Assembly (NCBI GenBank): GCA_018066965.1
Contig: JAGPVP010000043.1
Coordinates: forward strand, 1 to 53,410
Length of the DNA stretch: 53,410 nucleotides
DNA from: Zhongshania sp.
GTDB lineage: Bacteria; Pseudomonadota; Gammaproteobacteria; Pseudomonadales; Spongiibacteraceae
Direction of reading: 5' to 3'
Shown in pieces: positions 2 through 8,284 of this stretch. The position numbers and the translations under genes were made by a program. The notes beneath the pieces are model-generated. The model was not told the origin of the DNA. It did no database searches and worked only from the letters and a program-made list of their open reading frames with translations. Positions within the stretch are counted from its first letter, which is position 1. Each line of letters opens with the position of its first letter.

Positions 2-250
2 GACACACACATACCCGCAGACCACCCCATCCACATTATTGGCCACTTCCCACTAGCTTGCGAAGTCGTCGCCGCCACCGACGCCGTTGCAACGGTGGGA
101 CAAACTTACTTAAACAATAAGGAGTTTCTAAAACGCTTCACTATTCTCGACTTTACTTCGGCAGACAAGTTAAGCGTGTGCTGCGCCCACCGACAGGAAT
201 TTGAATTATCTGCCCCCGCGACTGCGCTAGTTAAATTACTCGCGCAATAA
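2..250 (+). CDS. LysR-type transcriptional regulator, C-terminal fragment (5' end outside window)
   Basis: An open frame runs in from the left edge and stops with TAA at 248-250, giving about 82 residues. The stretch reading LACEVVAATDAVATVG matches the closing part of a LysR substrate-binding domain, where a segment of the type aatdlvatvp precedes the last strands. The final residues (SAPATALVKLLAQ) fit the usual terminal helix. The DNA-binding domain lies outside the window, so the regulon cannot be inferred. It converges on the integron cassette that follows. The family call rests on pattern memory of a short tail and is moderate. Confidence 0.55.
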   Translation, partial: DTHIPADHPIHIIGHFPLACEVVAATDAVATVGQTYLNNKEFLKRFTILDFTSADKLSVCCAHRQEFELSAPATALVKLLAQ

Positions 251-420
251 AACGCTGATCTATCCACTAGCTATTCGAGTTAGTCCACTTACTACCTGAC
301 TGCGCTGGGGCGGCAAAAACGATGGCCAGAGCTGCTAAAAAAGCGGAAGGTCAAAAAATCGAAACTGATGGAAGTTGGTAGGTTTTTATACAGCATCAAC
401 GCCCGTATTTGGGGCGACTG
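251..420. other. Intergenic segment between LysR gene and integron attC
   Basis: No convincing gene is visible. A 19-codon ORF (322-381) is too short to support. The segment separates the LysR gene end from the outer boundary of the cassette attC and would be the first chromosomal DNA beyond the array. No second attC was recognised here. Confidence 0.4.
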
Positions 421-486
421 AAGCAACGCGTAAGCCGTCCCAGCAGCGCAGCTTTTTTGCGCTGCGACAACATGCGCTTGTTAGGA
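421..486 (-). other. attC recombination site of an integron cassette
   Basis: Read on the minus strand, the site opens with TCCTAAC (486-480, R'' type) followed by AAGCGC. It closes with ACGCGTTGCTT, where GTTGCTT (427-421) stands in the R' position. Between them the outer arms are imperfectly complementary with unpaired bases, and a perfect 8-bp stem (GCAGCGCA/TGCGCTGC) forms the tip. The length of 66 bp is within the usual attC range. The decisive point is that R'' (TCCTAAC) is the exact complement of GTTAGGA at 1057-1051, where the cassette begins. This is what a circular cassette intermediate requires. Confidence 0.75.
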
Positions 487-1056
487 TTCACTACGCCACA
501 CCTATTGCGATTGAGATAAAAACAATTGCCTTTATCAGCCAGTAAAGTGTGAAACCAGCCCCGGTAAGTATCACTAAGCCAACCAATGCCAAAAGCCAAT
601 TTGGATATATGCGCTGCAAGTGTACTTGTATGAGTTGAGCTTGGCCCTCTGCACAACGGACGTTAGACAATACTGGAGACTGACTGTGACTCAGAAGCTG
701 AATATTTATGTGCTCCTGCGACCCTAGGCTGGGAATTTTGATTATGTGCCTACCATCTGGAGTAGTTGATTCCGTGTATTCAAGCGCTGTTGAGAATTGA
801 AAATGGTCTGGGCGCTGCTCATGAATGATTTCAATATTATGAGCTGGCAGACGACCGGTATTTTGTATTGTCAGTGAATCGGTTCGCAGAGCCACCTTTG
901 GATCAGAAACATTAAACAGAAATGAGCCTGGAACCCAGTAGAGAAGTTTTGGCCTCGCTTGAAACCGCTGAAGTAATAGCCCAACAACCAAACTAACTAG
1001 GCCGGTTGCGATGTAGGGAATTAACTGATCCATAGCACCTTTCTCTTAAATCCTAA
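427..1056 (-). mobile_element. Integron gene cassette (single, 630 bp)
   Basis: The cassette starts on the minus strand at the T of G^TTAGGA (G at 1057). It carries one gene (1033-491) and ends at the G of GTTGCTT inside the attC (427). The start sequence and the attC R'' site are complementary over 7 bases. The gene reads away from the integrase remnant at 1375-1772, the canonical integron layout. No further cassette was recognised on the far side, so this appears to be a one-cassette or decayed array. Confidence 0.7.
491..1033 (-). CDS. Cassette-borne membrane protein of unknown function
   Basis: The 180-residue product opens with a hydrophobic helix (about residues 6-22, IATGLVSLVVGLLLQ) followed by a basic turn. 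The middle is soluble and beta-rich (about 30-140), with the phrase LTIQNTGRLPAHNIEI typical of an immunoglobulin-like fold. A second membrane segment closes the protein (about 147-178). This suggests an extracytoplasmic or cytoplasmic domain held by helices at both ends. The start is preceded by AGAGAAAGGTGCT, a usable ribosome site. I do not recognise the family, which is usual for cassette genes. The promoter is presumably the integron Pc, now perhaps lost. Confidence 0.6.
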   Translation of the reverse strand: MDQLIPYIATGLVSLVVGLLLQRFQARPKLLYWVPGSFLFNVSDPKVALRTDSLTIQNTGRLPAHNIEIIHEQRPDHFQFSTALEYTESTTPDGRHIIKIPSLGSQEHINIQLLSHSQSPVLSNVRCAEGQAQLIQVHLQRIYPNWLLALVGLVILTGAGFTLYWLIKAIVFISIAIGVA

Positions 1057-1374
1057 CAGTTTTATTCAGACGACTCAGGCCATATATCACTTTGGCCCCC
1101 TTATCACGGAAGTAGCTTTTACGTTGATTGAAAAATTTTAGGGAATTCAATGATGTAGCGACCTCACCATTAGCGAGCGCCGGTCAAACGAAGACTACGT
1201 CCCTTTATTTCTGCCAAACATTCCTTTCCCTTGATCATATCGCGTTTTTTATAAATTTCAATAACTTAAGTAACGCTGCAATGTGTTAATGGGAAGTGCT
1301 CTCTTGTTCACGGGCCTTGACGACCCGATGGCAATACATATGCGTATTTATAAGCAGTATTATTTGGAGTTGTT
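1057..1374. promoter_or_regulatory. Putative attI and integrase-cassette intergenic region
   Basis: On the minus strand the sequence AATAAAACTG ends at the recombination point G^TTAGGA (1057/1056), which by position must be the attI crossover. I could not identify the accessory integrase-binding repeats of attI or a clear Pc promoter, so only the crossover edge is supported. A good ribosome site (TTGGAGTTGTT) precedes the integrase remnant start at 1375. No separate gene is visible. Confidence 0.4.
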
Positions 1375-1816: not shown

Positions 1817-2944
1817 TCAATAGAACGCCGCACCGCAAACGGCGAACACCACAATAATAGCCATAATCGGCACACGCTTGCTGCGCAGCGCAATGAATCC
1901 CACCACGGCCAATAGAAGGGCAAACCAATCGTGGGGGGCACTACTCGCCACGGGGTTTATCCACGCCGCTGCCAGCATGCCAACGGCAACGGCATTAACA
2001 CCGGCAATGGCCGCAACGATAAGGGGTCTGGTCGATAACTGCTGCCAAATCCCCCGGAATCCTGAAAGAAGCAAAAAGCCTGGGGCGAACACAGCCAGCG
2101 TGGCGATAAATGCATATAACAAGGCCGCGTCTGAACGTATAGCCGCACCAAGGTAGGCGCTGAGGGAAAACATGGGGCCCGGCACGGCCTGCGCGGCAGC
2201 GTAACCCAATAAAAACTGGTCTTTGCTCAAGGCCTCGCCAACTAAAGGCTCTAACAGCGGCAAGACCACATGACCGCCACCAAACACCAAGCTACCGGCT
2301 TTATAAAACGTCGCGAAGATACCCGCAGAAAAAATAAAACACACTGCGAATAGCAGCACGAAAACTGTAAGACAAGCCAGCAAGGTACGGTCTGTTTTAA
2401 TACCAACAAGGTTCTGCGCTGGCTCGGCTCGCCACGCCATAACACCTGCGGCTAGCGCCATTAATGAGAACTGCCACAGGGGTGTCATGGCCCACGCCAA
2501 CGTCGCCGTACTTAATACGGCCAATGCGATGGTTAGCGGTTGCCGACAAAACTGATTTGCCATGCCCCACACTGCATCGGCCACCACCGCCACCGCTAAC
2601 AGCTTTAAGCCGCTAACAATACCGAATTGCAGAGTGCCTTCAGCAATGTTTAATTGCCAAACCGCGAGGCCATACATAAGAAGAAATGAAGGTAAGGTAA
2701 ATCCGAGGAATGCCGCGATGCCCGCGGGAATACCACCACGCCGACAGGCGATAGCGTAGCCTAACTGACTAGAAGAGGGGCCAGGAAGAAATTGGCAGAG
2801 GGCAAGATCAGCAGCAAATTCTTGTTCACTTAGCCAAGCCTTTTGTTCTACAAATACTTTTCGGAAGTAACCGATATGTGCAGCAGGGCCGCCAAAACTA
2901 ACGCAGCCCAAATAGAGGAATTGCAGAAAAACACGCCAGACCAC
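1817..2944 (-). CDS. chrA: Chromate transporter, CHR family (ChrA)
   Basis: The 375-residue, strongly hydrophobic protein consists of two homologous halves, the long-chain CHR arrangement. The first half has the signatures VSFGGPAAHIGY (about residues 15-26) and CQFLPGPSSSQLGY. The second half repeats them as VFGGGHVVLPLLE and AQAVPGPMFSLSAY. In the family this is a membrane transporter exporting chromate, sometimes linked to sulfate. Translation begins at GTG 2944, which lies in one arm of a 12-bp inverted repeat (2944-2985). The gene ends 44 bp from the integrase remnant. No chrB-like regulator gene is adjacent. Substrate is inferred from family only. Confidence 0.88.
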   Translation of the reverse strand: MVWRVFLQFLYLGCVSFGGPAAHIGYFRKVFVEQKAWLSEQEFAADLALCQFLPGPSSSQLGYAIACRRGGIPAGIAAFLGFTLPSFLLMYGLAVWQLNIAEGTLQFGIVSGLKLLAVAVVADAVWGMANQFCRQPLTIALAVLSTATLAWAMTPLWQFSLMALAAGVMAWRAEPAQNLVGIKTDRTLLACLTVFVLLFAVCFIFSAGIFATFYKAGSLVFGGGHVVLPLLEPLVGEALSKDQFLLGYAAAQAVPGPMFSLSAYLGAAIRSDAALLYAFIATLAVFAPGFLLLSGFRGIWQQLSTRPLIVAAIAGVNAVAVGMLAAAWINPVASSAPHDWFALLLAVVGFIALRSKRVPIMAIIVVFAVCGAAFY

Positions 2945-7081: not shown

Positions 7082-8284
7082 TCACGCGTCAATACCCAGC
7101 ATATTTGCCGCATTGCCACGCATCATTTTATAAACCTCGTCCTCAGAAAATTCGTCCATTTCCTCTGTCATTTCCGACGGCCACAACAAACCTTCGGGGT
7201 GTGGGTAGTCGGACCCATTAACAATGGTTTCTACCCCGACGCTATGCGCAATACGGCTAAAATCATCTTCGTGAAATGGCACAATTTTAAAATGTTTCCG
7301 AAAGACCTCGCTCGGTAACCCTGGCTTGCCATAGGGCCAACGGCTTTTGTGATCACCAAGACGGTAGATTTTATCCATGGTCTTGAGTAAGTGCGGCAGC
7401 CAAGCGGCGCCAAACTCCACAATCAAAAACTGCAGGCGTGGAAAACGGCCAAACAGGTTTTGGAATATCGTTGCCGAGATCTGGTCAACCACCGTGCGCT
7501 CACCCATGCCAACAAACATATTGAATGCCGTAAAACGATGCGACGGTGGGTTCGCCGGCTCGCCCCACGGCGCGGCATATAGCTCGGTAAACGGGCCGCT
7601 GCCTATATGGTAGGTCACTATCACATTGGCCTCCTGCACACGCGCCCAGAAAGGATCGAAATGCGGATCTGCAGGCGAGCGCCCCTCAATAGGACCAGTA
7701 TTAATATGAACTAAGCGACAGCCTTCTTTTATAATCCTCTCTAGCTCTATCAGCGCTTGGGCAACATCTAGCAGGCTCATCATGGCGGTGGCAAAAACCC
7801 GGCCATCGCCACCCCAACCCCAATCCTCACTAACCCAGCGATTGAAGGCCCGAATACTTGGATACGCTATATCATGATGGATAGGCTTACGAAGCTGATA
7901 TTCCACACCACAGCCCAAGGTCGGAATCATCACACAGGCCTCTACGCCCTGTTCGTCCATCCTTGCAAGACGAGCTTGCTTATCAATGAATTCAGGGCAA
8001 TCAATAGCGCGAATCGCATTGGCGTTTACCGCACCTCCGGTATCAATATCACCCTTAAAAAACGCCTTCATGGCACCAGGCGGGCCAACGTAATCGCCCA
8101 CGCCAACGCTAAAGAAGTTAAGTCGCTCATCACCTAGCTTCATTATTCCAAAGCCGTCATCACGCCCGCGCTCTACCCACACCGTGCGATCTTTGAAACG
8201 AGATTCAATATGCCGACTAAAGCAGTCGTCGGGTTCGTAGTAATGGTTATCGCAATCGATAAGAGAATACGGAAGGGGATTCAT
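7082..8284 (-). CDS. Amidohydrolase_2 family metal-dependent hydrolase/decarboxylase
   Basis: A 400-residue TIM-barrel protein of the amidohydrolase_2 type, the superfamily of aminocarboxymuconate-semialdehyde decarboxylase and related ring-cleavage or carboxy-aromatic enzymes. The N-terminal metal motif reads DCDNHYYEP. A barrel histidine is in VTYHIGSG, and the late aspartate is in NGSDYPHPEG. I start at ATG 8284 (MNPLPYSL), six codons inside the longest frame, because the core begins there. The MaoC-like gene lies upstream on the same strand with a 147-bp gap. Together they suggest catabolism of a cyclic or carboxylated compound. The exact substrate is unknown. Confidence 0.8.
   Translation of the reverse strand: MNPLPYSLIDCDNHYYEPDDCFSRHIESRFKDRTVWVERGRDDGFGIMKLGDERLNFFSVGVGDYVGPPGAMKAFFKGDIDTGGAVNANAIRAIDCPEFIDKQARLARMDEQGVEACVMIPTLGCGVEYQLRKPIHHDIAYPSIRAFNRWVSEDWGWGGDGRVFATAMMSLLDVAQALIELERIIKEGCRLVHINTGPIEGRSPADPHFDPFWARVQEANVIVTYHIGSGPFTELYAAPWGEPANPPSHRFTAFNMFVGMGERTVVDQISATIFQNLFGRFPRLQFLIVEFGAAWLPHLLKTMDKIYRLGDHKSRWPYGKPGLPSEVFRKHFKIVPFHEDDFSRIAHSVGVETIVNGSDYPHPEGLLWPSEMTEEMDEFSEDEVYKMMRGNAANMLGIDA

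Follow-up and report, generated by a model that had tools for sequence, protein, structure and literature searches.

Between a gene fragment that we read as a LysR-type regulator and a gene encoding a chromate transporter lies the remnant of a chromosomal integron, in which, very probably, one cassette was recombined into attI and the integrase was truncated and then decayed. The window, that is, the whole stretch of 53,410 nucleotides analyzed here, is the entire contig C14 of a draft assembly of Zhongshania sp. (3.66 Mb in 127 contigs, 84% complete, 6% contamination). In the window, 1566 bp separate the regions matched in these two genes, and the features lying at and between them are listed in Table 1. 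Pfam gave no match for the gene fragment at 2..250 (+), and Rfam returned nothing at gathering scores in the entire window.

Table 1. Positions in the window of the integron remnant and of the genes that mark its locus.
Feature	Position	Strand	Basis
3′ end of chromosomal gene, locus marker	2..250	+	orthologues in sister genomes
Right flank; 397-381 (GATGCTGTATAAAAACC) resembles left terminal repeat of attC-inserting IS1182-like element	333..397	−	
attC, 93 nt; R″ = TCCTAAC (486-480), R′ = GTTGATG (400-394)	394..486	−	covariance match and alignment to L044:6901-6994
Gene cassette, 657 bp; G^TT crossovers at 1057/1056 and 400/399	400..1056	−	start/R″ complement, attI alignment, attC model
Cassette gene; product of 180 aa with hydrophobic segments at each terminus (hydropathy)	491..1033	−	ORF
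attI-type site ending AAAACTG^TT	about 1057..1109	−	aligned with six other loci
Dead integron integrase; N-terminal portion split over two frames and interrupted by stops, catalytic C-terminal half missing	1375..~1783	+	TIGR02249 70 bits; one TGA and two TAA
Chromate transporter, locus marker	1817..2944	−	PF02417

Borders of the cassette and its attC

The initial annotation had pointed to a complementarity, as in a recombined circular cassette, between the start of the cassette and the R″ core of its attC, and the two are indeed exact complements (GTTAGGA at 1057-1051, minus strand, and TCCTAAC at 486-480). In arrays of the family, R′ and the next R″ are exact complements in 39 of 42 adjacent pairs (44 pairs less two that lie more than 1.6 kb apart, the attCs having been hand-picked among the scan matches listed), as against 69 of 2270 pairs drawn between different arrays. 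The attI-type site is common to the loci on contigs C120 and C49 of the same assembly and to the genomes G004, G008, G007 and G016, and a motif search for it gave additional matches. The seven aligned attI sequences diverge within a few bases past AAAACTG/A^TT, as expected of precise insertion at attI. Because the attI common to the six other loci ends there, the start of the cassette is fixed at 1056, and the 1057/1056 border placed by the initial annotation was correct, as was the order of integrase, attI and cassette that it had called canonical.

The other border depends on the attC, which we sought with a covariance model (R1). Candidates came from a rule-based scan that covered ten loci with arrays in the family, and 52 attCs in eight of these loci were then chosen by eye, L046 and L047 being left out. 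Training used 48 attCs, none from the genome of the window and some, those of L050, belonging to a different genus in the family, and excluded three attCs longer than 110 bp as well as L044:6901-6994, a close homologue of the attC in the window. Since RNAalifold gave only 7 pairs for these 48 sequences, a stem of 15 pairs was drawn by hand. At E≤1, R1 gave a single match in the 53-kb window, at 394-486 on the minus strand (28.1 bits, E=0.0034), so that the covariance check foreseen for the attC did detect one; applied to 16 further loci, of which one had contributed in part to the training, the model yielded 40 matches at the same threshold. Across the entire assembly there were 12 matches at E≤0.01, on contigs C51, C68, C89 and C105. 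The match in the window is modest (28.1 bits) and is insufficient alone at whole-genome scale, and as the attC of the window is absent from the 12 genome-scale matches, the case for it rests on the combined evidence.

The attC of the window shares 91% identity over 89 bp with L044:6901-6994, which belongs to an array adjoining the intact integrase of the sister genome G011. Both this alignment and the model place R′ at 400-394, and the cassette therefore extends from 1056 to 400. The right end that had been proposed at 421/427 is off by about 27 bp, and the GTTGCTT (about 428-422) taken earlier for R′ is internal to the attC. One arm, L″, presumably lies within AAGCGCATG (479-471), where it was placed by eye. 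The attC thus exists, as had been claimed, but its folding is less convincing than had been claimed: that of the interval first proposed is unremarkable (z −0.91 and −0.86 on the two strands), and the true site has a z of −1.82 and a minimum free energy structure of two hairpins rather than the canonical stem, which the L044 homologue does adopt (z −3.08). By eye, the L″ and L′ arms in the window can still pair, with one G-T wobble. Going by the R1 match and the alignment to an array attC, the site has the R″/R′ cores, the L arms and the imperfect palindrome of an integron cassette, with a non-canonical minimum free energy structure.

The cassette protein matched no Pfam, NCBIfam or PADLOC family, and its best PHROGs match had E=0.39. 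A relative was found in one of 20 other genomes of the family searched (G007; 31% identity, E 6.8e-15), where it sits between two attCs of an array adjoining an intact integrase; a scan of named genomes, which detects close relatives only, yielded 32 pattern matches and no relative. One promoter-like site (1261-1234, minus strand) is directed at the cassette, and promoters and terminators showed no excess over shuffled sequence (2 promoter sites versus 3.1 in shuffles). One could suppose that the hairpin at 394-486 arose by chance and that the ORF is a chromosomal gene like any other, as the unremarkable fold energy and the modest model score would allow. We consider this highly improbable in view of the 91% identity with an array attC, the junction at attI, the exact complementarity of start and R″, the location between attCs of the only relative of the gene found in the family, and the absence of the gene from the sister genomes at this locus. 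The borders indicate, rather, that one cassette was recombined into attI.

The truncated integrase and the same locus in sister genomes

A tblastn search with an intact relative aligned two pieces of the integrase, 1375-1659 and 1449-1802, in two frames with stops, the catalytic C-terminal half being absent. The integrase is dead, as the initial annotation had stated, on account of the frameshift, the stops and the missing catalytic half, and its picture of a lone cassette beside a decayed integrase agrees with the single attC in the window and the truncated integrase at 1375-~1783. A complete integron has a functional integrase gene at the locus; with a frameshift, stops and no C-terminus, the locus falls outside that class. 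It also falls short of a CALIN, for which PMC12444791 sets at least two attCs, there being one model match in the window. The stretch 1052-1783 is 85% identical to the attI/integrase region of G004.

Two sister genomes, G016 and G017, have by eye the same 3′ integrase junction at the same locus, where the cassette, attI and the first 50 to 60 integrase residues are missing and a different attC-like stretch is present (R1 match in L145 54-109, E 0.067). In three further congeners the matched parts of the flanking genes are separated by only about 48 bp (G004, G008) or about 86 bp (G005), and no integron is present. A comparison with sister genomes for an empty site, as had been proposed, thus gave two results: the last three genomes show a short gap only, and G016 and G017 keep the truncated integrase without cassette and attI. 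The 3′ junction is common to G016, G017 and the window and, if it was inherited, the death of the integrase would most simply predate the split of the three lineages. On this comparison of sequences, the integrase may have lost its 3′ half before the window's lineage separated from the two sisters, and would then have decayed further by frameshift. That the fossil might serve to date the loss, as had been suggested, is partly upheld by the truncation common to G016 and G017 and by the lack of an integron in G004, G008 and G005. Among members of one genus, the locus is without an integron, has an integron with one cassette, has the same integron minus cassette and attI, or has one whose attC core is occupied by an element. 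This series suggests that integrase death preceded species divergence while the cassette gene remained open.

Decaying sedentary chromosomal integrons that leave In0 and CALIN remnants have been described in Xanthomonas (PMC12444791). The locus described here resembles those remnants in its truncated integrase, its cassette with attC, its fixed chromosomal place and its possible rescue in trans; it differs from a CALIN in having one attC, below the threshold of two, and from the Xanthomonas remnants in that the genus has several integron loci per genome.

The right flank and an IS1182-like element at attC cores

About 65 bp of the right flank of the cassette recur at loci dispersed through the genus. 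Beyond this flank roughly 400 bp remain on the contig, in which no matching right end was found, and many loci with the same flank likewise show none. From sequence resemblance, the right neighbor of the cassette is likely what remains of the left end of an IS1182-like element, or of a MITE, of the kind that inserts at the attC core GTT; the identification is only likely because just the left-end-like part remains, with no right end, as at many similar loci.

One alternative hypothesis is that the conserved stretch of about 65 bp to the right of the last attC (GTTGAGGCTGTA...GTCCGCTTATTACC) is the native right boundary of the integron and not a remnant of an insertion sequence, and that, with an outward motif like GACTGTCCGCTTATGACC after some integrases, the whole integron would form a unit with terminal inverted repeats. 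The stretch does recur at the array ends of several loci, many loci of this flank type have no right end, and the 14-mer GTCCGCTTATTACC is rare (0 to 2 per genome in 18 genomes). Moreover, a motif like GACTGTCCGCTTATGACC lies 3′ of the integrase in L032 (2464) and L038 (1464), and L034 has, by eye, a comparable stretch. On the other hand, the stretch begins with ~17 bp that match the terminal repeat of the IS1182-like element in position and orientation alike, most of the 12 integrase 3′ flanks inspected by eye lack the motif, no outward 18-mer match follows the last listed attC of the G007 array, and neither a transposase nor an empty-site pair came to light for a unit of this kind. Motif scans for an integron acting as a transposon with terminal repeats found the motif 3′ of some integrases and not of others. 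A native border is therefore an unlikely explanation in our judgment, and the remnant of an inserted element is preferred. An outward motif like GACTGTCCGCTTATGACC, resembling the right flank of several arrays at its distal end, was also seen at L051 2622, an integrase-relic locus of G010.

The sister genomes G017 and G016 form an empty/filled pair for such an element: the one in G016 lies inside an AAC/GTT that is uninterrupted in G017, the continuity of the G016 insertion being inferred because its two sides lie on two contigs that share the end of the element. A terminal-repeat pattern with at most one mismatch occurs at 26 places in 7 of 18 genomes, and at none in the genome of the window. 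Removal of four identical loci left 22 rows for comparison, in which GTT precedes 12 of the 14 left-end-type rows (the other two having ATT and AAT, the AAT being the right end of a MITE) and flanks all 8 right ends. When 19 loci were given to the attC model, a match (E at most 0.024) abutted each of the 12 left ends with enough upstream DNA.

A search of a collection of named genomes gave 41 loci, 38 of which have the 5′ end, and CGTT precedes all 38 (two were read by eye, and eight have only a few bases upstream). An attC match abuts 27 of the 30 loci modeled, 24 of them at E≤0.02; the three lacking one are L245, L248 and L253. With CGTT as the left anchor and at most 5 mismatches, a right end was found in 30 of 32 loci examined and was followed by GTT in 29 of these, the exception being a poor match at L248. 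The element at L095 (G009:C5) and L215-L254 has terminal inverted repeats and is found in a single orientation at the GTT of the attC core across several marine genera, and MITEs of about 180 bp with both element ends occur on C49, at L103 and twice at L104. The transposase (P0001) scores 256 bits with NF033551 (IS1182), short of the cut-off of 270, and is over the cut-off for PF13751, PF05598 and PF01609. Pfam and NCBIfam thus give only DDE/DUF772 and IS1182/IS5 models, and not the DEDD transposase of IS110/IS1111. Relatives of the transposase (44-45% identity) occur in two Pseudoalteromonas records among plasmid records.

We consider it probable that a clade of the IS1182 family, with its MITEs, targets the attC core mainly or exclusively in marine Gammaproteobacteria, inserting in one orientation with GTT on both sides while the cassette cores persist, and that the cassette in the window is capped by one such end. 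This would be a second, independent case of homing to attC, here by a DDE transposase. A first such group, the IS1111-attC elements, was reportedly described by Tetu and Holmes in 2008 and by Post and Hall in 2009. PMC12444791 and PMC11187229 likewise have IS1111-type elements homing to attC. The element at the sister loci is similar in being an insertion sequence that homes to cassette attCs. It has DDE domains, an IS1182 match below the cut-off, terminal inverted repeats and GTT on both sides, whereas a DEDD transposase and repeats of subterminal position characterize IS1111. According to PMC5678879, IS1272, placed in the IS1182 family, replaces a stem-loop without target duplication. A preference for stem-loop or palindromic targets thus has precedent in the IS1182 family; unlike the target of IS1272, the attC stays at the sister loci, and GTT flanks both ends of the element. 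No work was recognized, mainly from titles, as linking IS1182-type elements to attC, nor, from titles and the start of abstracts, as describing the integrons of Zhongshania. The attC-homing clade is the more novel part of these observations, the cassette and integrase being fossils of a gene-capture system of known kind. The evidence for homing of an IS1182-type element to attC makes a mutual shaping of arrays by transposons and integrons testable.

A candidate integrase in trans and other integrons of the assembly

A compatible integrase can excise an integron cassette as a circle by way of the folded bottom strand. The cassette at 400-1056 retains its ORF, the matching 7-bp start/R″ pair and an attC with L″/L′ arms that, by eye, are able to pair, and could be excised by such an integrase, that on contig C74 being one candidate. 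The latter is an intact integron integrase (L007 1330-2292, plus strand) of 320 aa with tyrosine-recombinase domains, scoring 384 bits with TIGR02249, over the cut-off. Mobilization of the cassette in trans, which the initial annotation had raised, is plausible because the same assembly has this intact integrase, although the attC does not take up the canonical stem at minimum free energy. C74 itself might belong to another organism, given the draft state of the assembly (127 contigs, 84% completeness and 6% contamination). Divergent from the integrase, L007 104-970 (minus strand) encodes a 288-aa SIR2 protein that matches only the N-terminal part of ThsA (Thoeris). The start of C74 carries what reads, by eye, as the end of an IS3-like transposase.

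An intact integrase in the assembly could also mean that the cassette was inserted into the attI of the dead integron in trans by another integrase, and hence is younger than the integrase loss. The attC-like stretch of G016 and G017 differs from that of the window, so the cassette content of the sisters may have differed. However, the attI motif of the locus was not found at C74, whose integrase is only putatively able to recognize it, and the difference is accounted for just as well if the sisters simply underwent loss. We are doubtful of such a late insertion, and favor a cassette recombined into attI beside an integrase that was truncated and then decayed.

The term orphaned, used in the initial annotation, suits the locus itself and not the assembly, given the 12 attC matches on four contigs and the loci on C120 (L039 715-5451) and C49 (L040 3795-6281), which have an attI and cassettes with no recognized integrase. 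On C49, moreover, a fragment of the flank is duplicated, by eye, and a MITE lies at the core of an attC. A second integrase relic, with an attC and a similar right flank, lies on C105 (L008 7198-7281 and about 7764-7927).
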